Shown: piece after piece, positions 1-58,726 of the stretch
Numbering within the stretch: position 1 is the stretch's first letter
How the letters are laid out: each line of letters starts with the position of its first letter
NCBI GenBank assembly: GCA_009379915.1
Contig: WHSV01000011.1
Location: 1-58,726, forward strand
Reading direction: 5' to 3'
DNA from: Actinomycetota bacterium
GTDB lineage: Bacteria; Actinomycetota; CADDZG01; WHSQ01
DNA: 58,726 bases
Program-made: the position numbers and the translations under genes
Notes under the pieces: model-generated
Databases searched by the model: none
The model's input: only the letters and a program-made list of their open reading frames with translations
What the model was told of the DNA's origin: nothing

Positions 1-307
1 GGGACCAAAATGACCAAATCAGGACGGTTGGAGCAAGTCGGAGCCTGTTTCGTTGGGTCAACGCAGGCCGGATGAGATCGGGCTTGAACAGAGAGTTGCA
101 GGGGGGATTCCTTGAGTTTTCTTTGACCACTCTGCACGATCAGGGATCTCCGAGCTATTTTGGGTCGCTTAACGAAGGCCGCATGGCTGGACAGGTCCGT
201 CTCCCGTAACGATACCGAGACGGAGGGAAGCCAAGCTGACACCTGAACCGGATTTTTGGGAGGTTGGCTGTGATCGTCCACAGCTACTGGGGGCGGCCCG
301 ATCTTCG
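1..307. other. No gene recognised (left edge)
   Basis: No open frame here resembles a protein I know. Positions about 110-129 (CTTGAGTTTTCTTTGACCA) look like a diverged copy of the inner part of the direct repeat seen near 57.7 and 58.7 kb. The similarity is short and may be chance. Confidence 0.3.
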
Positions 308-694
308 ATGAGGAACGCGCGTATTGCCGCCGTACTGACCTGGGTCTACGCCGCCGCGTTCGGGTTCCCGGCCATCCCTGTCGCTGCCCACCTGCTCCAA
401 AGCGGGAGGCTCCCGACATTCCTCGACCTCTTCCCGATGTACGGCGGCCCGTGGTCGTCGCGGGTGGAAGACCGTACCTTCGCAGTACTCCTGATCGCAT
501 TCCTCATCGTGACCCTGGTTTCAGCGTCGGCCGCCTGGCTGGTGCGAAACGGATCAAAGGCCGGCGCCGTGCTCAGCCTTGTTATGTTGCCTATCGAGGC
601 CGTATTTTGGCTTGGCTTCGCATTGCCGTTCCCCTGGCTGATCGGCATCGCAAGGGCAGCCCTCCTGGCCCTTGCGTGGAAGTCTCTCGAGTGA
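308..694 (+). CDS. Small hypothetical membrane protein
   Basis: This 128-residue protein has about four hydrophobic segments: near residues 5-30, 58-80, 86-105 and 108-125. It therefore looks like a small polytopic inner-membrane protein. The ATG at 308 follows a short leader with no strong ribosome-binding site. I do not recognise the family. It is followed by a broken integrase, so the left edge may be an accessory island. Antisense frames over the same stretch have ordinary soluble composition and are less convincing. The function is unknown. Confidence 0.5.
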   Translation: MRNARIAAVLTWVYAAAFGFPAIPVAAHLLQSGRLPTFLDLFPMYGGPWSSRVEDRTFAVLLIAFLIVTLVSASAAWLVRNGSKAGAVLSLVMLPIEAVFWLGFALPFPWLIGIARAALLALAWKSLE

Positions 695-751
695 TGAATT
701 CGGGCTACTGGATCGGTAACCGTTGATGCGGCGCTAGGCATCCCTGACCGG

Positions 752-1065
752 GTGGACCGCTGTTGCAGGAATCACGGTCCTTGCGGACTTCGCGGTACTG
801 GGGGCCATTGGAACCCCTGCGTTGGCGTCAAGCTCCCTCCCGAAGATGCGCGGCCCATGCGTTTCCTGACTGCGGAATTAGTGCGAGTTGCCGACGCAAC
901 CGGCGAGCACTACCGGCCCATGGTGCTAACTGCGGGGCTCGGGGGGCTGCGCATAGGTGAACTCGCGGCCCTTCGAATCGACAACGTGAACCTGCTCAAG
1001 AGAATGATCTATGTAAAGGAGCAACTCCTCGAGGTCGAGGGAAAAAGCGACGGGACGCCTAGAGG
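752..1065 (+). pseudogene. Truncated tyrosine recombinase (phage-type integrase) fragment
   Basis: The frame reads NPCVGVKLPPEDARPMRFL and then a stretch with GLGGLRIGELAAL and LLEVEG. That is the start of the catalytic domain of actinobacterial phage-type integrases, including the first catalytic Arg in the GLRxGEL motif. The downstream HxxR box and the tyrosine nucleophile are absent, because the homology ends just before the 3' end of the convergent endonuclease III gene. The N-terminal arm- and core-binding domains are also missing. It is a decayed remnant of an integrated element. The frame stays open to 1180, but the residues after about 1065 are antisense to nth. Confidence 0.65.
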
Positions 1066-1067
1066 GT

Positions 1068-1757
1068 CTACTTGGCAGCGCCGCGAGCGAGTAGGTCCGG
1101 GCCTGCCGCGCACAAATCGAACAGGACGCAGTCGCTGCACTGTGGCCGAGCGGCTTTGCAGACTTCCCGTCCGTGCTTGATGAGTTGCATGTGGAGCTCG
1201 TAGCGGATCTCGGGGGCTATTCCGGGACGTAGGAGCCTGTGAGCCGCGTTCGCCGTCGCCTTCGGCGGGATGAGTCCCAGGCGGACGGCCACACGGAGTA
1301 CGTGCGTGTCGACGGGAAATGCATTGCGACCCATCGAGAACAGCAGCACGCAGGCCGCCGTCTTTGGCCCCACCCCAGGCAGGGAGACGAGGTAGCGCTC
1401 GACTTCATGGTCGTCGAGCCCGTTGAGGCGACCGAGGTCGATCTTGCCCTCACGCTCTTCGATCTCGGCGAGGATCCGTTGGATGCGCACCGACTTGGTG
1501 TCGGCCAGGCCGCCCGACCGAATCGTGCCGGCCACCTCCGTCGGATCCGCGTCCCTCACCGCCCGCCACGTGGGCCAGCGATTCTTGAGGCTTCGGAAGG
1601 AGCGCGCCGTGTTCAGGTCCGAGGTGTGCTGGCTCAGCACCGTCATAACGAGCTCGTCGATGATGGGCAGCTGCGGCTTGCGCGTGAACGGGCCCTGTTG
1701 AGCCAGCAGCCTGCGATGGAGGGCGCTCGTTCTGCGCCGGTCGACCTTTGCGGTCAG
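1068..1757 (-). CDS. nth: Endonuclease III (DNA glycosylase/AP lyase)
   Basis: This base-excision repair glycosylase removes oxidised pyrimidines. Visible features are the VLSQHTSDLNT segment, the helix-hairpin-helix LPGVGPKTA with its catalytic Lys, the catalytic Asp in FPVDTHVLRV, and a C-terminal 4Fe-4S loop with spacing C-x6-C-x2-C-x5-C (CKAARPQCSDCVLFDLC). The first ATG in this frame (1646) would remove about 37 residues that match the family's N-terminus (HRRLLAQQGPFTRKPQ, then LPIIDELV). No ATG, GTG or TTG lies upstream in frame as far as I traced into dnaB. A CTG at 1755-1757 overlaps the dnaB stop as CTGA, like the NTGA overlaps elsewhere in this window, and I propose it as the start. 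If CTG is not used, the gene is 1068-1646. It is probably co-transcribed with dnaB. Confidence 0.85.
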   Translation of the reverse strand: MTAKVDRRRTSALHRRLLAQQGPFTRKPQLPIIDELVMTVLSQHTSDLNTARSFRSLKNRWPTWRAVRDADPTEVAGTIRSGGLADTKSVRIQRILAEIEEREGKIDLGRLNGLDDHEVERYLVSLPGVGPKTAACVLLFSMGRNAFPVDTHVLRVAVRLGLIPPKATANAAHRLLRPGIAPEIRYELHMQLIKHGREVCKAARPQCSDCVLFDLCAAGPDLLARGAAK

Positions 1758-4387
1758 CGCGGCACCTTCGCGAGCGATGCGAACTTCGTGTACTGGTTCA
1801 TGAACGCCAGCTTCACAGTATCGGTCGGTCCGTTGCGGTGCTTCGCGACGATGAGCTCCGCTTCGCCACGTGCCTCGGAGTCACGGTTGTAGACCTCGTC
1901 ACGGTACAGAAACATGACGAGGTCGGCATCCTGCTCGATGGAATTGTGCACGATCATCCCCTCGGCGATGAAATTGTGCGTCCCCGGGACGGTCGCATCG
2001 AAGACCTCTTCGTCGGTGTCGGGAACGATTTCTGCGACTTCGTCCCAGAAGACATCGGATTGAGCCAGCGACTCAAGTCGTCGATTCCGAATCACCGTGG
2101 TGATCCGCCCGAGACGCTCGCGGCTGGGAGCCGATTTGTACAGCGAGGAGCCGCTGTAGGCCATGCCAAGCCCATGAGCAAGCTGCCGCGTCGTTACTCG
2201 TTGATCGCCCATGTGAAGGCGAATCTCGTCCCACACCTTCCGAGGAACGACATCCACCCTCGGGTTGGGAGAGATGCTAGAGAGATACGAGATGTACTCG
2301 GGAATGGCTCTGCCGCGTTCGCCGTGAATTCCAACTTCGCGGAGGAACTCGAGTTGGTTCTCAGCTCCCCGAACGTGAACCGCAAACGTGTCTTGACAAC
2401 CCGCTTTTGGTTGAGAGCGAATGCAGCTCGAGATCCCAAGACGAAGAAGGAGTAACTGGACGTCCTTTGCCAAACGACGACTGCTTGTTCCGTAATAGAG
2501 GACAACGCCGTTCGACGGTCGCAGCGATACATGACCAACCGTTGCCCAGAGATGTCTGAGGAAGAGGGTCACCTGATCATCAGGAAGACCGAACACTTCT
2601 GGGGGCAGGAACTTTTCTCTGCTGCGCTTGCCAAAGAGACCAAGGTCGTCTAGCCACCTGGCTATCGGGTTCCGGCGGCCATGGGTGAGTCGAAAAGGGG
2701 CGGGGAGATAGAGGTGCCACCAGTTTCGCTGAGCGACCAGACGTCCTGTGTTTCCGAAGCTCTTTGCAGCCTCGGAGACCGCCTGAAGATTCTCGGGGTA
2801 ATGATTCGTGTAGTGGAGAGGTTGACGTTTGACGAGACAGCCGTCCCCTATGAGATGAGCGAGCAGAATCACTTCGGCATCCTGCCAGCGGTTTGGGTGA
2901 GAGCCTTCGCTCAACCGGCGAGGGACCGCCAGATGCTCGCCCGGTTCCAAGTCGGCCAGCGACTTCCACCCATCGAAGGAAAGGAAAGGATGGTTGGCGC
3001 TCGCCCGAATTTCTCTGCCCGACCGGAGTCTGAGCTTGAACGTCTTCTTTACGCCGCTCGAGAAGACACTAGTCATCGTCCCACGAGTGAGTTTGAAATC
3101 CTCGTCCAGAGTCCAGACCGGGATGTTCCGCTCTCTCCGTTCGTAAAGCTGGCCGATCGAAACCGCTTGACCGGTGTCCGCGCGGACGACCTTCGTATCC
3201 GCGGTGAGGCACCCCGATTCCCGCAGGTCTCCGAGGAGAGGGCGCTTGTCGGCGCGCATCTCGACACCCCGGTTCAACTGCGACGCGCATAGCACCGGCA
3301 CCTCGAGCTCGCGCGCCAGAATCTTGAGGTTTCGAGATATCTCGGATACTTCCTGTTGGCGGTTCTCGGACTTGCGCGGTGACTGCATCAACTGGAGATA
3401 GTCGATGATAATCAAGCCCAGTCCGTGCTTGGCTTTCAGACGCCGGCACTTGGCTCGAATCTCTACGAGGGTTATGTTCGCGCTGTCGTCGATGAAGATG
3501 GGAGCTTCGGCGAGTCGGCCCATTGCTCCCGAGAGTTTTCCCCAGTCTTGCTCCTGCAGCGTTCCTCGGTTGATGCGCTGGGAGTCGACCTTCGCCTCGG
3601 ACGATAGAAAGCGTTTCACGAGTTCGTGGCGGCTCATCTCGAGAGTGAAGATGACGACGGGCACTGGATCGGTGCGCCTCAGTGCCGCCGCCAGGGTGAA
3701 GTCGTTCAACAGGCTCGACTTACCCATCGCAGGACGTGCGGCGATGATGATCAGGTTGTTCTTCTGAAAGCCGGCGGTGATGTCGTCGAGATCGGAAAAG
3801 CCGCTCGATACGCCCGTGATGTGCTCGCCGCGCTCGTAGAGTTGCTCGATCTGTTCCATGTTCTCGCCGAGCAACGCTTTGAGTTGATGAAGCTCGTCGC
3901 GCAGCCGCCGGTTCCCAACCTCGTAGACGATGCCTTCGGCGGCATCGACCGCATCCGCCACATCGGAGGGCATCGAGAAACCGATTTCCTGGACCTCGTT
4001 GCCCGCGCTGACGAGTCGGCGAAGCAAGGCCAGTTCCTCGACGATGCGGGCATAGCGAGCCGCCGCCGAAGCGCTCGGGTAGGCCTCGATGAGCCCGAGG
4101 ATGTACGGCCGGCCCCCGACGCCCTCCAGGGTCCCGCGCCGGCTGAGCTCTTCGACGATGGTGATCGCGTCGATCGGCTCATGGCGGTTGAAGAGCCCCA
4201 TGATCGCCTCGTAGATCTCGGTGTTGGCCGGCTTGTAGAAGTCGTCCGCGCTGAGGATTTCGACGACGTTGGCGATGGCGTCCTGCGACTCGAGCATGGC
4301 GCCGAGCACCGACTGCTCGGCATCGAGATTGTGCGGCGGTATGCGATTGGGGCGCACCTGCTGCAGTTCCCGTGCTCCCTGAGCCAC
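1754..4387 (-). CDS. dnaB: Replicative DNA helicase DnaB with an in-frame intein
   Basis: This is the hexameric replicative helicase. The N-terminal domain begins PPHNLDAEQSVLGAML. The RecA-like core carries Walker A (ARPAMGKSS), Walker B (LIIIDYLQLM) and the QLNRGVE segment. The reading frame is 877 residues, far above the usual 440-460, because a 423-residue intein interrupts it after DLRESG and before SIEQDAD. The spliced product would be about 454 residues. I chose GTG at 4387 because GGAGG lies about 10 bases upstream and the protein then begins VAQGARELQQ. The upstream ATG (4432) would place the SOS-like palindrome inside the gene. The long gap from rplI and the palindrome suggest dnaB has its own promoter. 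nth follows with overlapping codons. Confidence 0.95.
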   Translation of the reverse strand: MAQGARELQQVRPNRIPPHNLDAEQSVLGAMLESQDAIANVVEILSADDFYKPANTEIYEAIMGLFNRHEPIDAITIVEELSRRGTLEGVGGRPYILGLIEAYPSASAAARYARIVEELALLRRLVSAGNEVQEIGFSMPSDVADAVDAAEGIVYEVGNRRLRDELHQLKALLGENMEQIEQLYERGEHITGVSSGFSDLDDITAGFQKNNLIIIAARPAMGKSSLLNDFTLAAALRRTDPVPVVIFTLEMSRHELVKRFLSSEAKVDSQRINRGTLQEQDWGKLSGAMGRLAEAPIFIDDSANITLVEIRAKCRRLKAKHGLGLIIIDYLQLMQSPRKSENRQQEVSEISRNLKILARELEVPVLCASQLNRGVEMRADKRPLLGDLRESGCLTADTKVVRADTGQAVSIGQLYERRERNIPVWTLDEDFKLTRGTMTSVFSSGVKKTFKLRLRSGREIRASANHPFLSFDGWKSLADLEPGEHLAVPRRLSEGSHPNRWQDAEVILLAHLIGDGCLVKRQPLHYTNHYPENLQAVSEAAKSFGNTGRLVAQRNWWHLYLPAPFRLTHGRRNPIARWLDDLGLFGKRSREKFLPPEVFGLPDDQVTLFLRHLWATVGHVSLRPSNGVVLYYGTSSRRLAKDVQLLLLRLGISSCIRSQPKAGCQDTFAVHVRGAENQLEFLREVGIHGERGRAIPEYISYLSSISPNPRVDVVPRKVWDEIRLHMGDQRVTTRQLAHGLGMAYSGSSLYKSAPSRERLGRITTVIRNRRLESLAQSDVFWDEVAEIVPDTDEEVFDATVPGTHNFIAEGMIVHNSIEQDADLVMFLYRDEVYNRDSEARGEAELIVAKHRNGPTDTVKLAFMNQYTKFASLAKVPR
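1943..3211 (-). mobile_element. DnaB intein with degenerate LAGLIDADG endonuclease
   Basis: This 423-residue protein intron is encoded in frame inside dnaB. It starts with Cys (CLTADTKVV, block A), has a block B region (RASANHPFL, with the conserved His), and ends with block F/G residues VPGTHNFIAEGMIVHN followed by Ser of the C-extein. All residues needed for splicing appear present. The insertion point ESG/SIEQD matches the DnaB site used by the Synechocystis DnaB intein. The first endonuclease motif is intact (LLAHLIGDGCL). The second reads LFLRHLWATVGHV, with Val where the catalytic Asp is expected. The intein therefore probably splices but may have lost homing activity. Confidence 0.93.
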
Positions 4388-4788
4388 TGCCCTATCTCCT
4401 CCTATACGAACATATGTTCGATATACTCTCATCCCAGCCCGTCTGTGGCAAGGCGGAGTTCCCTGGCGTTCAGGGAGAGCGAAACGGAGCCCACTCGCCC
4501 TGTGCCCGGGCGAGAAAGCTAGTACGGCGGCCTGTGCAAGCGAAACAGCACGACTCGGTGGATTGGCTGTGGGCTCTCGCCGTGACCTGTTGAAAACCGG
4601 TGGCCCTGCGAGGGTGCCGGACGGCAGAGTCCGGCCCTCGGGGCATCAGGGATGTGGACAAAGATCCCGAGGGTGCCGTGGAAGGGGGAAAGAATTCCCT
4701 CGAGTACGCCCTTCCATTGAGATCCATTTTCTTTGTGCCTCGGCGCCCATTTTGCGGGAGCTCCCGCACTCAGAAAATCGCCGGGGGG
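4388..4788. other. Intergenic region rplI-dnaB with two hairpins
   Basis: No convincing gene lies here. Besides the SOS palindrome it holds two hairpins. The one at 4609-4640 (arm GCCGGAC pairing with GTCCGGC, six-base loop) is suitably placed to end the rpsF-ssb-rpsR-rplI transcript. The one at 4494-4514 (CTCGCCC pairing with GGGCGAG) lies closer to dnaB. Neither has a clear U-tract. A third palindrome (GCGGGAGCTCCCGC) lies near 4754. Confidence 0.45.
4407..4420 (-). promoter_or_regulatory. Perfect LexA (SOS) box upstream of dnaB
   Basis: CGAACATATGTTCG is a perfect 14-bp palindrome. It matches the LexA operator consensus of Gram-positive bacteria and actinobacteria (CGAAC-N4-GTTCG). It lies 19 bases before the dnaB GTG start, just upstream of the ribosome-binding site. 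A bound repressor would block the promoter or early transcription. Control of dnaB, and probably nth, by the SOS response is inferred. Confidence 0.8.
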
Positions 4789-7807: not shown

Positions 7808-10111
7808 CTACGGGTCGTCTCCGGAAGGCTTCTTACGACCGTTGCCGCCACCGCCGGGGGGAGTGGTCGAGGGTTCGGGAGAGGGTGTCGGGTTCTTGGT
7901 CGGCTCTGGATCGGGTTCCTCTTCGTCCTTGTCCGGCTCTTCCTTTTTCTCCTTGTCGTCCTTGTTCTTCTTCTCCGGCTTCTCGGGAGGAGGCGGGGGA
8001 GTACTGATCACCGTGCCGGAGTCGATTCCGTCCTCGAAGTACTCGACCGGGTAACCACCGATCTCCATCGCCTGGGCCATGAACGCTCCCCACATGGGGG
8101 CCGGGCTCACCGGAGCTCCGCCCCCGCTGACCTCGTATCCCTGCACCGGGCGGCAGAGGTCCGTATCGGTGCAGTAGCGCATCTCGGGAACGACCCCGCT
8201 CTTCTGCAGCGGATAGCCCTCCCACACCACGGTCGCGAGCTGGGGCGTGTAGCCCGCGAACCACGCATCGCGGAAGTTCTGCGTCGTGCCGGTCTTGCCC
8301 GCGACCGGCCGGCCGATGTTCGCGGCCGTCCCAGAGCCCGAGGTCACGACGCTCTGAAGTGCCTCGTTCAACAGGTTGACCGAGTTCTCGTCGACGACCT
8401 GCGTGCTCTTCATCCGGACCTTCTCTTTGCCACAGGCCTTCGAGCTGTTCGGACGGTAGACCTTGACGCACTCACCGTTCGAGTTTTCGACGTAGGCGAC
8501 CGGCGTGATATCCGGCAGCGCTCCGCCGTTGGCGAGTCCCGCGTAGGCGCGGGCCATCTGCAGTGGGGTCACGTCCTGTGTGCCGAGGACGAGCGAGCAG
8601 TTGGGAGTTGTCGGCTGCTTGCCCTTCTTGCTCGGATTCCCGTCGAAACCAAACCCGCCGAGCAGGTCCGCGACGTTCTGGGGGCCGATCTCGACGATGA
8701 GCTGGGCATAGATCGTATTCACCGACGATGCGGTGGCCGACATCAAGTCCATATAGCCGTAGCTGGCGAAGGCGTAATTAGACGGCTGCCACAACTCGCC
8801 GTCCGTGGCGCATTGCGGATCGTCGATCGTGTACGGGCTCGCTCCCGAGAAGCTCGACTGCAGAGAGACCCCGTTCTCGATCGCGGTCAAGAGAGTGAAG
8901 GGTTTGTAGGAGGATCCGGCCTGGCGGTAGTTGTCGCTCGCGTAATTGAAGCCGCGCGCCTTCTTGACGTTGTCGAAGTCGCGGCCCCCGACAAAGGCCC
9001 TGACGGCTCCGTTCGGAGTCATGGAGACGAGCGCCGCCTGGGGATCCTCGGGGGTGGTCAAGGTGGAGGCGATTGCATCCTCCGCGGCTTGCTGCATCTC
9101 CATATCGAGCGTCGTGTGGATCTTGTAACCACCGGTGTAAAGCTCGTTGCCGAACTCTCGCTGGAGGTCGCGCCTGAGCCACTCCATGAAGTAGGCGGCG
9201 GGCTGCTCTTTGCCCGTGGTCGGGTCACCGCCCTTGACGATCTTGATCCTCTTGCCCAGCCACTTGTCGGCCGTTGCCTGGTCGATGTATCCCTGTTCGA
9301 CCATCTGGGTGAGCACCCTGTCGCGTCGTGCGCGCGCCGCTTCCTGGTTGCCCTGGGGTTGGTAGGACTCGGGCGACGGGATTATGCCGGCAAGGAAAGA
9401 GGCCTCGCCGAGATCGAGGTCCTGGGCGCTCTTGTCGAAGTAGGTGCGAGCCGCGGCTTCAATTCCATAGGAGCCGCGACCGAAGTACACGGTGTTGAGG
9501 TAGAAGCCGAGAATCTGATCCTTGGAGTAGCGACGCTCGAGCTTGACGGCGAGAATCGCCTCCTTGAGCTTGCGCTCCACCGTGCGGCCCGGATCCTCGA
9601 GCACGGCCTGCTTGATGTACTGCTGGGTGATCGTCGATCCACCCTGTTGGATCTCGCCGGACGTCAGGTCGGCCCACGCAGCTCGGGCCATGCCGCGCAC
9701 CGAGATTCCGTTGTGCTGGTAGAAGGTGCGGTCTTCGGAGGCCACGACCGCCTCACCGATGTGCTTGGTGGCCTTTTTGTTGATGAGCTCATCGGTGTTG
9801 ATCAGGAAGCGGCGTTGCTCGCCGGAGAAGATGCCGATGAGGTTGCCGTTTGTGTCGTAGACCTCGGCCGCCGACGCGAGGGGCACCTCCCGGGGCAAGG
9901 GGATATTGGCGAACGCGTACGTGAGGAACAGCACCGTCCCGCCTACGCCCAGGGCAACCAGCGGGAGCATCCACCCCAGGCGAAGCAGCCAGCGCGACGC
10001 GCGCGGCCGCTTGACCGGCGCGCGGACTCGCCGAGGTGGTGCTTTTGTGGTGCGCGTCGAGCCCTTGGCGATCCTCGTCCCGCTCGAGGGCCTGCGCGGA
10101 GATTTGCTCAT
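7808..10111 (-). CDS. Class A penicillin-binding protein (transglycosylase/transpeptidase)
   Basis: This bifunctional enzyme polymerises and crosslinks peptidoglycan. There is a basic cytoplasmic tail (residues 1-40) and one membrane anchor (about 43-70). The glycosyltransferase 51 domain has VVASEDRTFYQHNGIS with its catalytic Glu and GGSTITQQYIKQ. The transpeptidase domain has the Ser-x-x-Lys of GSSYKPFT, an SVN motif and KTGTT. The tail is rich in Pro, Glu, Lys and Asp, with many PxP repeats. The 767-residue length is normal for PonA-type proteins. Its position upstream of the GT87 gene matches mycobacterial ponA1. Confidence 0.93.
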   Translation of the reverse strand: MSKSPRRPSSGTRIAKGSTRTTKAPPRRVRAPVKRPRASRWLLRLGWMLPLVALGVGGTVLFLTYAFANIPLPREVPLASAAEVYDTNGNLIGIFSGEQRRFLINTDELINKKATKHIGEAVVASEDRTFYQHNGISVRGMARAAWADLTSGEIQQGGSTITQQYIKQAVLEDPGRTVERKLKEAILAVKLERRYSKDQILGFYLNTVYFGRGSYGIEAAARTYFDKSAQDLDLGEASFLAGIIPSPESYQPQGNQEAARARRDRVLTQMVEQGYIDQATADKWLGKRIKIVKGGDPTTGKEQPAAYFMEWLRRDLQREFGNELYTGGYKIHTTLDMEMQQAAEDAIASTLTTPEDPQAALVSMTPNGAVRAFVGGRDFDNVKKARGFNYASDNYRQAGSSYKPFTLLTAIENGVSLQSSFSGASPYTIDDPQCATDGELWQPSNYAFASYGYMDLMSATASSVNTIYAQLIVEIGPQNVADLLGGFGFDGNPSKKGKQPTTPNCSLVLGTQDVTPLQMARAYAGLANGGALPDITPVAYVENSNGECVKVYRPNSSKACGKEKVRMKSTQVVDENSVNLLNEALQSVVTSGSGTAANIGRPVAGKTGTTQNFRDAWFAGYTPQLATVVWEGYPLQKSGVVPEMRYCTDTDLCRPVQGYEVSGGGAPVSPAPMWGAFMAQAMEIGGYPVEYFEDGIDSGTVISTPPPPPEKPEKKNKDDKEKKEEPDKDEEEPDPEPTKNPTPSPEPSTTPPGGGGNGRKKPSGDDP

Positions 10112-54122: not shown

Positions 54123-54154
54123 AGAAAGGGCCCGCACGCGTGCGGGCCCTTTCT
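54123..54154. terminator. Bidirectional terminator between opuCC and the DUF1684 gene
   Basis: This is a perfect 32-bp palindrome with arms AGAAAGGGCCCGCACG and their complement. The A/T ends give a U-tract in either direction, so it can stop transcripts of both convergent genes. Confidence 0.9.
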
Positions 54155-54789
54155 CATCCGGGGTGTCGTTCGCCCGCTTCGATGGTCAGGTCGACCCTGT
54201 TGGCGGGTGTCGCCAGTGGACAGACCCAGCGATCGTCGTAGGAGCAGGACGGGTTGTAGGCGAAGTTGAAATCGAGCACGAGCTTGTCGTACAGCGTGCC
54301 GAGGTCCGCGCCCTTCACGGTGTCGAGCAGGTAACGACCTGCGCCGTACGTCGTGTTCGCGCTCGTCGTATCCTTGAAAGGCAAGAACAGCCCTCCGCCG
54401 TAGGTCTCGAGCCAGTACAGCTCGAGCGTCACGAACTGTCCCTGTAGCTGGAAGTTCGCGATCCCTCGGCGCGCGAAGCGCATCGGCTCCGTTCCGTTCG
54501 TTGCGATGTCGTAGTGCTCGCTGGCCGCTTCGCGGTAGTCGGCAAGGACTCTGAAGGCCGGGTCGTAATCGTAGTAGTCGAGCCCTGCGAAGCCCTCACG
54601 GCTGCCGAGCGGGAGAGGGCTCTGGGGATGCGTGGCGAACATCTCGTGGCGCACCTCGCGCCACCTGCGCCAGGCCCACTGAGGCTCGGGGGAGGCGCGA
54701 ATCTCGCTGTACAGCTCGAAGATGCGACGCCTCCAATCGAGAAGCGTCATCACATCCTCTATAGACTCCGACGGCTCCGGTTGGGTCAC
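54154..54789 (-). CDS. DUF1684 family protein
   Basis: The C-terminal signature LVLDFNFAYNPSCSYDDRWV followed by CPLATPANR is diagnostic for DUF1684. The N-terminal half has WRRRIFELYSEIR and HPQSPL. The length is 211 residues, with no signal or membrane segment. Family members are uncharacterised. The gene is monocistronic and ends in the bidirectional terminator. The preceding gap (54790-55032) contains nothing I recognise. Confidence 0.88.
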   Translation of the reverse strand: MTQPEPSESIEDVMTLLDWRRRIFELYSEIRASPEPQWAWRRWREVRHEMFATHPQSPLPLGSREGFAGLDYYDYDPAFRVLADYREAASEHYDIATNGTEPMRFARRGIANFQLQGQFVTLELYWLETYGGGLFLPFKDTTSANTTYGAGRYLLDTVKGADLGTLYDKLVLDFNFAYNPSCSYDDRWVCPLATPANRVDLTIEAGERHPG

Positions 54790-55032
54790 GCAGGGGATTC
54801 TGCCCCGGCAGAGACCATCTCACTCTCACTGTGAAGGGGATGATCGATGCTTGGTGGAACGTGGGTGCGATGATCTCGTCGAGCCCGGAGGTCGAAGAAC
54901 GAGATGGCCGCCGAGCATGCACAGAACTCCGGCGATGAGCCGCGTGTGGCCTAATGGATCCGTCGTGCTGGGGCGGTGCAAGGAGACTGTTGATCGCGGG
55001 ATCCAGGCCTCGTATCGGACTCGGTGGATCGA

Positions 55033-55995
55033 TCAGAAGAGGTCGAACTCGAGACCGCACGCCTCGCCGCTCGACGAGAACACCTCGGGGCGCGGATCCT
55101 CCGTGGGCTGTTCGGTGTTCAGCGCGTCGACGACGTGGAAGGCGCCGTCGCGCAGCACCAGACGGGTGACGTGGACCTCAGTCGTCTCCGAGCCGGGTCC
55201 CTCGACGGGATGGTTCGACCACGCGACGACGAGCACGGGGTCCTCGGGGTAGCTCTCGCAGGCGACGGCAGCCCCGAAGCCCTCGTCGCCCCCGGTCCAG
55301 ATCCGAAGTGGCTTTCCGGCCGGAAGATCGCCCTCGCGGTTACCCGGCTCGGCTACGTTCACGGGCCGGAGGTCGACCGAACCATCCGACGCCAGCTGAG
55401 CCGAGAAGACGGAGTACGAGGGGACGCTCCCGCCATGCGTGAGTACCACGAGCTCATCATGCCCATCCCCATCGAAGTCCGTAGCGCCGAGAGGCTCGCA
55501 GAAGAAGCAGTTCTTGATGGACCACGAAGCGTCCGAGAGGCCATCGCCCGTGACGTCAACCGCCAGGAGGTAGGAGTCCTCGATCCCCCTCTTGCAGCGC
55601 CCGTCGTCGCTGACGGCCGTCGCCGTCCACGCGTTGCCGACGGTGCCGTCACCGAGGAGGTCGAGCCCTCGAAGCCTGGAGACGTCGCAGACCGGGAAAC
55701 CGAGGCCGATGTCCCGGCCGATTTCGGGCGACGTGCTCTCGGTCGGCGACGGAGTCTCCGAGGGCATGGGCGCAACCGGCTCCTGGGGTGTCGGAGCAGT
55801 GAACGCCCGTACCGCGGTAAGTGACGCGAGCCCCAGAGTTCCGACCACGAGAAGGCTGGTCATCGCGGTAACCATTCTTCTGATCCTGGAGCGGCGAAAC
55901 ACTCGCTCGGCCATCTCGGGAGAGGGCTCGATCGACTCCGAGGCCATGTTGCGCAACTCGAGCAGCTCGCGTTCGAGGTCACTCACGGTCCTCAC
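55033..55995 (-). CDS. Membrane-anchored FG-GAP/VCBS-like protein, putative antisigma partner
   Basis: A short cytoplasmic region (residues 1-38, RTVSDLERELLELRNMA) precedes one membrane segment at about 40-65 (VTAMTSLLVVGTLGLASLTAV). A Pro/Ser/Thr linker and an outer domain with calcium-loop-like DVTGDGLSD and DFDGDGHDEL motifs follow. The outer domain has paired Cys (CFFC). The length is 320 residues. Its start overlaps the sigma gene stop by 17 bases. The layout is that of a membrane antisigma or sensor protein, although no zinc-finger motif is present. That role is inferred. Confidence 0.65.
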   Translation of the reverse strand: MRTVSDLERELLELRNMASESIEPSPEMAERVFRRSRIRRMVTAMTSLLVVGTLGLASLTAVRAFTAPTPQEPVAPMPSETPSPTESTSPEIGRDIGLGFPVCDVSRLRGLDLLGDGTVGNAWTATAVSDDGRCKRGIEDSYLLAVDVTGDGLSDASWSIKNCFFCEPLGATDFDGDGHDELVVLTHGGSVPSYSVFSAQLASDGSVDLRPVNVAEPGNREGDLPAGKPLRIWTGGDEGFGAAVACESYPEDPVLVVAWSNHPVEGPGSETTEVHVTRLVLRDGAFHVVDALNTEQPTEDPRPEVFSSSGEACGLEFDLF

Positions 55996-56479
55996 CTCTC
56001 ATTTGCCCGCGCAGAGTCGCCAGACCCCGAGACACCAGAGAGTTGACGGCTCCTACCGAGGTATCCAAAACCTCCGCGGTCTCATGCTCGGATAGGCCCT
56101 CGCAGTGTCGCAGAACGACTGCCGCGCGCTGCCTGGGTGGCAAAGCTTGTAACGCGTGGAGAAGCTCATCGCGAGCATCGACCCGACTCAACTGTCCGTC
56201 ATCCTCCGCGTCGGCCTTGCGCTCACGACGCAAATGGGCTCGCTCCCTGTGCAGCTTGCGAAAGTGGTCCTTCGACAGGTTCACCACGGTGTGTCTCAGA
56301 TAGGCCGCGAAGGCCTCGGGCTTTCGGAGATCCTGGAATCGTCCAAAGGAACGCACGAAGGCGTCTTGGGCCAGATCCTCGGCCAAGTACCTGTCCCCCG
56401 TGAGGAGGTAGGCGAGCCGAACGACGTCCGCAGAATGCTGGTAATAGAGGGCGGTCGCTCTTCCTCTACCTAACGTCAT
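55979..56479 (-). CDS. SigE-family ECF sigma factor
   Basis: Region 2 includes ADVVRLAYLLTGDRYLAEDL with AQDAFVRSF, and region 4 includes LPPRQRAAVVLRHCEGLSEH and AEVLDTSVGAVNSLVSRGLA. This pattern belongs to the SigE-type ECF group common in Streptomyces-like actinobacteria. ATG at 56479 follows GGAGGGG and gives 166 residues; an upstream ATG at 56512 is possible. It is translationally overlapped by the membrane protein that probably regulates it. Confidence 0.9.
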   Translation of the reverse strand: MTLGRGRATALYYQHSADVVRLAYLLTGDRYLAEDLAQDAFVRSFGRFQDLRKPEAFAAYLRHTVVNLSKDHFRKLHRERAHLRRERKADAEDDGQLSRVDARDELLHALQALPPRQRAAVVLRHCEGLSEHETAEVLDTSVGAVNSLVSRGLATLRGQMRGEDRE

Positions 56480-56784
56480 TGCCCCTCCGGCCGCACCCAT
56501 TAGGCCGGTCACGGTGGCGGACCCTCATGAGATCTGTTCATGCTCTATAGACGAGCGAGACGCCAAGAAGACCGCGCTCCAATTGACTGAACTTAACCTT
56601 CGCGCTGCCCGGCGTCTCCGAAGCACGAACCACGGTTTGCGCCGGTCATTGGCCGCCGGATAAGCGCTTATCGGGGTCGCGCAACGGCTGCAGGTGAAGC
56701 GCCAGTCGCGCGATCGATGATTCTTCGCCTGGTAGCTGGTCTAACACCTAACGGAAGGGGAACTCGTGACCGGAAGGGGAAATC

Positions 56785-57432
56785 ATGACGAGTTACGTGA
56801 CCTCGGTGGATGGAACTCAGATCGCCTTCGACCGCCTAGGTCAAGGCCCGGCCGTCGTCGTGGTGAGCGGTATCTTCTGCGATCGGCAGACGACTCAAGA
56901 ATTGGCCGAGCAGCTAGCCCAGCAGTTCAGTGTGATCAACTACGGTCGCCGTGGGCGAGGCGAAAGCGGCGACACTGCGCCGTATTCCGTTGAGCGGGAG
57001 GTCGAAGACCTCGGCGCCCTAATCACAGAGGCCGGGGGCACGGCATCGGTATACGGCCACTCTTCGGGTGCGGGACTCGCCCTGAACGCAGCGGCCGGCG
57101 GGTTGTCCATCACCCGGCTAATACTTCACGAGCCGCCATACGGCCCCGACGATGAAGAAAGTTCTCACAGTTATTACGGACTGATTGGCAGCGCCGAGGC
57201 TCGCGTTGCCTATGGGCGGGACGTCACCAGGAGCAGAGGCAGAAGGGATGACCGACCGGATCGGCGTAGACCCGGAACTTCTCCTGGGTGTCGAGGTGGC
57301 GGGCACCTAAGGCGATCGCCCGCTCGTGGGCGGCGTCCAGGTCGTCCACCGCAAGGTCGAGGTGCAGCTGCTGTTGCACGGCGGGGTCGGGCCACGTCGG
57401 AGCGACGAAGCCAGCGGCCGGCTGGAACGTGA
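56785..57432 (+). pseudogene. Alpha/beta hydrolase, C-terminally truncated
   Basis: The N-terminal half is a normal alpha/beta hydrolase: VDGTQIAFDRLGQGPAVVVV, then GRRGRGESGD and the nucleophile elbow YGHSSGAGLA. LILHEPPYG follows. From about position 57220 the frame runs antisense through a VOC gene and becomes Arg-rich. The domain with the catalytic Asp and His is lost. The upstream sequence shows a short duplicated GGAAGGGGAA in front of the ATG. The product is unlikely to be an active hydrolase. Confidence 0.75.
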
Positions 57433-57589
57433 TGGCCGTGCCGCCCCCGGGTGGGTCCAGCGCCACGTAGTCACCGTCACCAGCGGGCACCGGCCACTCG
57501 AGCAGCTCCCCGTAGAACCTGGCCAGCGCGGCAGGCTCCGGGCAGTCGATCGTCACGGTGTCGAAGCGGGGGACGGCGGGGCCTGGCAT
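57224..57589 (-). CDS. VOC (glyoxalase-like) family protein
   Basis: This is a 121-residue single VOC module. The betaalphabetabetabeta pattern starts FDTVTIDCPEPAALARFYGE and contains LHLDLAVDDLDAAHERAIAL, ending DPVGHPFCLCSW. Family members bind a metal and act on or bind small molecules, and many confer antibiotic resistance or degrade aromatics. The target here is unknown. It lies convergent to, and partly over, the broken hydrolase. A related VOC gene lies about 0.5 kb away. Confidence 0.88.
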   Translation of the reverse strand: MPGPAVPRFDTVTIDCPEPAALARFYGELLEWPVPAGDGDYVALDPPGGGTAITFQPAAGFVAPTWPDPAVQQQLHLDLAVDDLDAAHERAIALGARHLDTQEKFRVYADPVGHPFCLCSW

Positions 57590-57673
57590 TGTGATCCTCC
57601 TTGGTCGAGTCGTACCAGGATCGAAGGTTACGCCGGTTCATTCCCGCTTTGGAAAGAGAGAAGGAAGCGACTC

Positions 57674-57708
57674 TCGAGGAAAACGGCTTTGAGTTTGCTT
57701 TGACCCAG
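57674..57708 (+). repeat. 35-bp direct repeat, copy 1
   Basis: This stretch begins CTCGAGGAAAACGGCTTTGA and ends CTTTGACCCA. It matches 58679-58713 at 33 of 35 positions. It lies just upstream of the first VOC gene and close to the tRNA fragment. Confidence 0.8.
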
Positions 57709-57780
57709 CGCCCGCCCTTTGACGCCTCGTCGGTTGAATCCGGGGGGCGCAATACCCTCTCGGATCTGAGGAAACGCGTA

Positions 57781-57833
57781 GTGGGCCCAGATGGACTTGA
57801 ACCATCGACGCGACCTCACCCTTATCAGATGTG
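57781..57833 (-). pseudogene. 3' half of a tRNA-Ile(GAT) gene
   Basis: On the minus strand the sequence reads CTGATAAGGGTGAGGTC (anticodon loop with GAT and the 3' side of its stem). A T-arm follows (GATGG, TTCAAGT, CCATC), then an acceptor-like TGGGCCCA. No 5' half (D-arm or acceptor 5' strand) is found in the next 60 bases. About five extra bases lie between the variable loop and the T-stem. It is not a working tRNA. Such 3' halves are typical attachment-site remnants left by integrated elements. Confidence 0.6.
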
Positions 57834-58078
57834 CGACACCATCCGGACGGTGAGGATCATGGATGACCAAGTCGGTACGGTTGGCGCAGGTCAGGACGTG
57901 TTTACGAGGGGTCAGTGTAGGTTGGGCTACTGCGCTTTGCTTCGTGTCATCTTTCCGTAACTGCCAATCAGGCGGGCCCGTACCGGAGACCTCACTTACT
58001 TCACGATCACGACACGCCCGTCACACCGACTTCGAGGCAGACCCTAGGTACCTGGTGTCGAGGCGTGACCGATGAGCA

Positions 58079-58459
58079 TCAGAGTGGGTTGAGGCGGGCC
58101 TTGAGCAGGCAGAACTCATTACCTTCGGGGTCGGCCAGGACATGCCACTGCTCCTGCCCTGTCTGGCCGATGTCGGCCGGGCGCGCACCGAGCTTCAGAA
58201 GGCGTTCGAGCTCGGCGTCCTGATCACGGTCGGTGGCGTTGACGTCGATGTGCAGCCGGGATTTCCCCTGCTCCGGCTCATCCCTGCGACTGAGGATGAT
58301 CGTCGGCTGCGGACCGCCGAACCCTTCGCGCGGCCCGATCTCCACCGAGCCGTCGTCCTCGCGATCGAGCACGACGAAGTCCAGGACCTCGCACCAGAAC
58401 CGCGCCAGCACCTCAGGGTCGCGGCAACCGAGCACGAGCTCACTGATACGACATGCCAT
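58079..58459 (-). CDS. VOC (glyoxalase-like) family protein
   Basis: The 126-residue VOC module starts MACRISELVLGCRDPEVLAR and has FWCEVLDFVV. It contains SRLHIDVNATDRDQDAELER and ends DPEGNEFCLLKARLNPL. It is distantly related to the other VOC protein nearby but not a recent copy. No partner gene indicates the substrate. The 245 bases between this gene and the tRNA fragment contain nothing I recognise. Confidence 0.88.
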   Translation of the reverse strand: MACRISELVLGCRDPEVLARFWCEVLDFVVLDREDDGSVEIGPREGFGGPQPTIILSRRDEPEQGKSRLHIDVNATDRDQDAELERLLKLGARPADIGQTGQEQWHVLADPEGNEFCLLKARLNPL

Positions 58460-58678
58460 TAACGAAACCTGCTCTCAGCCTGGGAACTGCCGGCGAGACC
58501 ACACGCGAACCTCATGGGCTCCCAGCAGTGAAAACAATCCCGCGATCGTACCCGACGAGGCGAGCACGGGCGAAATGATTTCAGGGCCGACCCTGTCCGG
58601 GCAGCCGGGCAAGGCCGTTGGCCATGCAGTAGGGAAGCTGACTTTGAGACACGACCTAGAGGGCAGAAAGGCGGGCGC

Positions 58679-58713
58679 TCGAGGAAAACGGCTTTGACTC
58701 TGCTTTGACCCAC
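58679..58713 (+). repeat. 35-bp direct repeat, copy 2
   Basis: This copy of the 57674-57708 sequence has two substitutions and the same orientation. It lies at the right edge of the window, so any longer unit cannot be judged. Confidence 0.8.
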
Positions 58714-58726
58714 CCTTTTGCGGCCT

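Follow-up and report, generated by a model that had tools for sequence, protein, structure and literature searches.

A tRNA-Ile 3′ half as a probable attachment core inside a tRNA-anchored island of an uncultured actinobacterium

The window analysed in this work is a stretch of 58,726 bp that makes up the whole of contig C109 in a 3.4-Mb genome of 158 contigs (G000). Near its right end lies the 3′ half of a tRNA-Ile gene, which raises the question of what process left it there. A preliminary description of this DNA had read the fragment as the scar of site-specific integration, at a point where the window may enter or leave an integrated element. We examined this proposal from the composition of the fragment, its position relative to conserved neighbours, the repeats that accompany it and the genes around it; the evidence base is one genome in contigs.

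The tRNA-Ile fragment and its place in the genome

The fragment, a 3′ half of tRNA-Ile(GAU) on the minus strand, occupies positions 57781..57828 and runs from the anticodon loop (CTGATAA) to CCCAC; as had been described, it has no 5′ half. ARAGORN called no tRNA over the window, and Rfam gave nothing at the gathering score for the fragment. A comparison with its own genome recovered the intact tRNA-Ile on contig C24 (4317-4391; E 6.4e-12), with the same 3′ half. The preliminary description had made its reading depend on an intact gene of this kind, and it is present. Relative to the intact gene, the half has five extra bases in the variable region. Among the 30 tRNA loci that were fetched and typed, from 47 tRNA matches in the genome, C24 is the sole tRNA-Ile(gat) locus. 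The core of an attachment site is expected to be a tRNA 3′ half from the anticodon loop, and the continuous identity between fragment and intact gene does start at CTGATAA, in this loop. On its 5′ side there are two mismatches, five further matching bases (CGCAC) and then divergence; judged from the alignment, the CGCAC match is a point against an attachment site, since the identity lacks a clean stop at the loop. The duplicated tRNA 3′ end that characterises genomic islands is also found here.

The fragment adjoins a P-side flank, P_X (57829..57903, minus strand), which recurs together with part of the core at C30:20162-20252 (89%) and C34:5195-5288 (85%). None of 60 relatives, 15 of the same family and none of the same genus, showed a match (E up to 0.001) spanning the fragment into its flank; the fragment query matched 13 of the 15 family members, nearly all at their tRNA-Ile gene. 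Fixation of the fragment in relatives that lack an element, which the preliminary description had regarded as fatal to its reading, was thus not observed.

The position of the fragment was established by synteny. We fetched 17 stretches from relatives, 13 of them from the family, in which the gene order is thioredoxin, tRNA-Ile, DUF1684 and an OpuC-like transporter; the thioredoxin gene is present in 12 of the 13 family stretches and DUF1684 in nine, the other four having no DUF1684 match. Measured from the tRNA end, the DUF1684 match begins after ~0 bp in G009, 55 bp in G015 and 168 bp in G006; the remaining six relatives have 1.5-6.9 kb at this place (6.9 kb in G001), and the intervals of 1.5-2.6 kb in G002, G013, G004 and G014 may hold ancestral genes rather than inserts. 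In the genome studied here, C24 carries the thioredoxin and tRNA-Ile genes, and the window carries DUF1684, the last backbone gene, at 54154..54789 (minus strand). A translated comparison showed that window ~1068-54789 is colinear, with gaps, to G002:C1 428.1-473.9 kb and G006:C20 403-451.8 kb. In the same comparison, neither window 55001-58726 nor C24 1-3500 had a credible counterpart in the corresponding stretches of G002 and G006, and the island proteins w55033, w55979, w56785, w57224 and w58079 had no match at 1e-5 in the 17 stretches. Two short matches near 56.5-57.5 kb, which point to another part of G002, were treated as noise.

Foreign sequence thus starts at ~54790, an edge set by a gene start and not base-precise. 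By synteny, the fragment falls into the interval between two genes that are normally neighbours, tRNA-Ile and DUF1684, so that the putative scar is located ~3 kb inside a tRNA-Ile-anchored island and not at its edge. This position supports the proposal of an integration scar. It also upholds the view that the right end of the window belongs to integrated DNA, while the scar itself does not mark the border, which lies at ~54790. An insert next to a tRNA in a conserved frame, another hallmark of genomic islands, is what the gene order indicates, with the join between C24 and the window inferred from synteny. The island takes up no less than 3.9 kb of the window and 4.3 kb of C24, which would be joined to the right end of the window by a missing stretch. 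No contig overlapping position 58726 or C24 position 1 was found, and the middle of the island is unassembled, which counts against this reconstruction. Two further results fall on the same side: the GC profile does not change within the island and is uninformative, and the search for a tRNA-end remnant between DUF1684 and 57740 did not rise above shuffled sequences (best score 18, shuffle mean 18.2).

We also searched genome contigs for DUF1684 and scanned 24 of the best 80 loci for tRNAs. A tRNA-Ile upstream was found in L149 only (taken as G006:C20), and the arrangement may thus not extend beyond the family. Two relatives of the same genus, G011 and G015, differ in this interval, with 6.7 kb in the former and 55 bp, a nearly empty site, in the latter. 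In G011 (L081, G011:C77, 5962-7361), Recombinase and zinc-ribbon domains, with no resolvase domain, are encoded in two overlapping frames abutting tRNA-Ile. The last 16 tRNA bases are copied (14/16 identical) directly before DUF1684, and the bases that come after the copy agree with those of G015; the score of this copy (22) is not above chance alone, and the argument is its position. From its sequence, the tRNA-Ile of G011 appears to be a used integration site in a relative.

Paired repeats and recombinase genes

The preliminary description had noted a 35-bp sequence about 70 bases from the fragment and repeated 1 kb away, and had read the two together as a possible attachment site. The repeat is there as described: copy 1 (57673..57707) and copy 2 (58678..58712), both on the minus strand, are identical at 33/35 positions with a spacing of 1005 bp (E 2.1e-8 in the 3.4-Mb genome); copy 1 lies 73 bp from the tRNA fragment and copy 2 ends 14 bp short of the contig end (58726). 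Its role calls for a correction. The 35-bp repeat contains paired direct repeats of the GTCAAAG type with an 11-bp period, as expected of tyrosine-integrase arm sites, and from its sequence it looks like such sites and not like a duplicated core. The pairs are GTCAAAGCAAACTCAAAGC in copy 1 (57686-57704, minus strand, 76 bp from the tRNA fragment) and GTCAAAGCAGAGTCAAAGC in copy 2 (58691-58709, minus strand). At the other end of the window, the arm motif GTCAAAGAAAACTCAA (112..127, minus strand) lies on the P side of a second site described below. With up to two mismatches, the motif GTCAAAGNANACTCAA occurs three times in the window, always beside the two att regions, against a chance mean of 0.19 (0/100 shuffles reach three); since it was drawn from these very sites, the count reflects its rarity elsewhere and is not an independent discovery.

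Repeats of similar period follow other tRNA-Ile ends, GTCAGCAC on C24 and CCAGATGCAGA on C34, and the distances from the tRNA-Ile end to the paired repeats are 65 bp (C24), 76 bp (window) and 84 bp (C34); the chance rate for such repeats is 0.058 per kb. Paired repeats near the core, as an attachment site should have, are therefore present as candidate binding sites. In a survey of 38 integrase loci (13 from this genome and 25 related to the integrase remnant described below; tRNAs with too little flank were left out), repeats with a period of 10-13 bp were found 40-130 bp 3′ of the tRNA in 8/18 cases and on the 5′ side in 1/17. For all tRNAs of stretches L078-L094 the figures were 1/24 on the 3′ side and 0/24 on the 5′ side. 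At the tRNA loci of the genome itself, repeats were found downstream in 5/26 and upstream in 2/26, which is not clearly above the control and counts against the arm reading. An attP-like layout on contig C21 (L124 560-1153) was counted in favour of it, because the same design appears there at a tRNA-Gly 3′ half: paired repeats on both sides of the half, then the C-terminal part of an integrase (165-aa frame). The degenerate arm pattern had zero exact matches in viral_contigs, and phage records gave no match.

The integrase gene that the preliminary description had suggested looking for was not recovered. A PF00589 search had no match on C24, C34, C30 or C109, which counts against an integration scar, as a cognate integrase adjacent to the attachment site would be expected. 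The one trace is a remnant of a tyrosine integrase at window 845..1066 (plus strand; a 74-aa segment as delimited here), which scores below the PF00589 cut-off (E 2.6e-4, 21.3 bits against 27.1) and is 48% identical to an integrase of G020; beyond 1042-1054, not far from the stop codon of nth, it no longer resembles other integrases. Among integrase loci with similarity to the remnant, 25 were inspected with up to 1.5 kb of flank (23 from relatives and two from this genome); none has an adjoining tRNA-Ile, so the cognate integrase could not be assigned among them. Weak tblastx matches between the window end and integrase loci were treated as noise. A serine-recombinase origin was discarded, as the only matches to PF07508 and PF00239 in this genome are on C100 and C113, and none is at the site. 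The genes concerned (C100:933-1856 and C113:9675-10592, in frames of 614 and 608 aa) are on contigs that each carry a tRNA-Arg(cct) ~0.7-1.7 kb away.

Gene content and the island at tRNA-Gly

The right-hand island begins with genes for an FG-GAP protein (55033..55995) and an ECF-type sigma factor (55979..56512), both on the minus strand. They are followed by a shortened alpha/beta hydrolase gene on the plus strand (56785..57225, the end being approximate, since the frame continues over the next gene), the Pfam match of which (residues 24-147) stops at profile position 124 of 217. Two VOC/Glyoxalase_6 genes on the minus strand, at 57224..57589 (121 aa) and 58079..58459 (126 aa), encode proteins that are 36% identical and thus not the product of a recent duplication. 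The block around the second (57983..58662) is plasmid-like DNA: 617 of 685 aligned positions (90%) are identical to plasmid SNP1 of Streptomyces nigrescens. On C24, a RibD-like block shares 91-92% identity with plasmids of Rhodococcus opacus and Nocardioides (2/215 records above 90%). For comparison, a backbone transporter had 0/917 plasmid records above 90% and 16 at 80-90%. Window 54790-57780, which includes the first VOC gene, had no close plasmid match (five records, best 73.6%), so close plasmid relatedness is claimed for the second VOC block and the RibD-like block only. Matches to the RibD-like proteins were, however, also obtained close to this locus in G009, at 29-34%, which counts against the explanation favoured below.

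The left end of the window (1..111, minus strand) is identical to C34:5310-5420 and corresponds to the P_X flank of a second tRNA-Ile 3′ half (C34:5205-5253), which has a related P_X flank and arm. The end of C30 is in turn exactly C34:514-624, so that contigs overlap by exactly 111 bp. The distance from dcd to nth is 2.6 kb in G002; here dcd is on C30 beside tRNA-Gly, and the nth-like gene, the first backbone gene at the left, is at window 1068..1646 (minus strand). This arrangement points to a second island between tRNA-Gly and nth, to which the remainder of C30, C34 and window 1-1066 belong. Inside it are the tRNA-Ile half with its flank, the arm motif at 112-127 and the integrase remnant; a third P_X copy, without a full tRNA half, is at C30:20162. 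The finding of a tRNA-Ile half with the same flank inside an island at tRNA-Gly counts against the explanation that we favour below.

The tRNA-Gly island also encodes, at 8307-9692 and 10337-14711 of L037 (C30:14000-31182), a CBASS-like pair of SMODS cyclase and 2TM effector (PADLOC E 2.4e-108 and 1e-78), together with DNA methyltransferases of the D12 and type III-like kinds. Two versions of tRNA-Gly(ccc), C34:1-120 and C30:18205-18324, are identical over 85 bases, after which visual comparison shows a difference by a compensating T-stem pair; they are either strain variants or the result of an element-supplied 3′ half. Further into the window, 1754-4432 is a DnaB helicase gene with an intein and a LAGLIDADG domain. 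Window 1-57828 places ~58 kb of backbone, dnaB included, between two tRNA-Ile cores in direct orientation, and recombination between them would remove this segment.

Readings of the locus and known systems

We consider it probable, at roughly 80%, that the fragment is the att core of tyrosine-integrase elements targeting the tRNA-Ile anticodon loop, with the 35-bp repeat as their P′-side arms, inside a tRNA-Ile/DUF1684 island. A tyrosine integrase would cut in the anticodon loop, and integration would restore an intact tRNA at one end, with a 3′ half remaining at the opposite end. The predicted arm-type binding sites, on the P′ side of the core, would be those of the 35-bp repeat. The integrase that made the scar may have acted in trans or been lost since. 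Several elements, now without integrase, would have inserted repeatedly at tRNA-Ile, and small cargo genes (VOC, RibD-like, methyltransferase) may occupy the place of int in related elements.

Other processes could give a similar picture. The tRNA-Ile half could be an unrecombined attP carried as cargo by an element or plasmid that entered the island by homologous recombination between flanks or through another integrase. Element-type sequence does lie on both sides of the core (P_X and the P′ arm), and the same P_X with a tRNA-Ile half is found in the tRNA-Gly island; however, tandem insertion produces the same two-sided look and the fragment sits in the tRNA-Ile/DUF1684 interval, and we judge this explanation unlikely. 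Local duplication without an integrase, leaving a tRNA pseudogene, has a precedent in G006 (L078, G006:C20, near 9.5 kb), where the intact gene is succeeded by a tandem series of degenerate tRNA-Ile copies, with no large insert. In our window, in contrast, the unbroken match to the tRNA starts at the anticodon loop. Two islands contain the copy together with its own flank, and the paired repeats are at the usual distance; a pseudogene of this origin is very improbable. Contigs do break in this region, and the exact 111-bp overlaps indicate graph assembly, as would suit an assembly chimera near the contig end. Yet the fragment lies ~900 bp from the contig end, two other contigs carry copies of its flank and its position is explained by synteny, so we give a chimera almost no weight.

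A narrower proposal, doubtful in our estimation, is that the 35-bp repeats bound a ~1.0 kb single-gene cassette without integrase, formed by arm, VOC gene, P_X flank and tRNA-Ile half. Such cassettes would insert head-to-tail at tRNA-Ile, with the integrase supplied in trans, as a tRNA-based counterpart of integron cassettes; a further tRNA-Ile 3′ half should then follow ~77 bp after 58709, in the sequence immediately beyond the contig. With or without such cassettes, the preferred reading of an att core would mark a site of repeated integration in a family of uncultured actinobacteria. It also suggests that small enzyme genes may be exchanged singly, in units without an integrase, between distant actinobacteria, and that synteny together with arm repeats may serve to tell an att scar from chance.

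The locus has parallels in several known systems. Like tycheposons, it holds cargo bordered by a tRNA gene, although these are described with a tyrosine recombinase (PMC10872708). The same source reports, in Methylopumilus, additive flexible genomic islands of 330 bp to 42 kb and 1 to 63 genes, preceded by tRNA-Lys 3′-end repeats (PMC10872708). These resemble the present islands in the recurrence of partial tRNA repeats beside them; there it is the last 20 nt that repeat, whereas here the repeat is 48 nt with paired repeats nearby. Cluster J mycobacteriophages have a 44-bp core that starts on its left within the anticodon loop and has pairs of 10-bp direct repeats on its flanks (PMC3706429). 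Cluster J and Boilgate share with our site a core over the tRNA 3′ half, of 43-44 bp in these phages, with flanking arm-type sites (PMC3706429, PMC10865867), and differ from it in that no integrase lies beside the site here and no phage record matches. CIMEs keep their att sites, have lost integration and transfer genes and occur in tandem at one target (PMC5704250). Mobilisation in cis after accretion is a criterion for CIMEs, and no parent ICE was identified here; of the att sites that a CIME has at both ends without an integrase, one core is seen and the second is predicted past the contig end. The likeness to CIMEs and accretion islands would lie in the proposed integrase-less att elements in tandem (PMC5704250), and the locus is best read as accretion of such elements at tRNA-Ile, a kind of arrangement already known and found here in an uncultured actinobacterial lineage.
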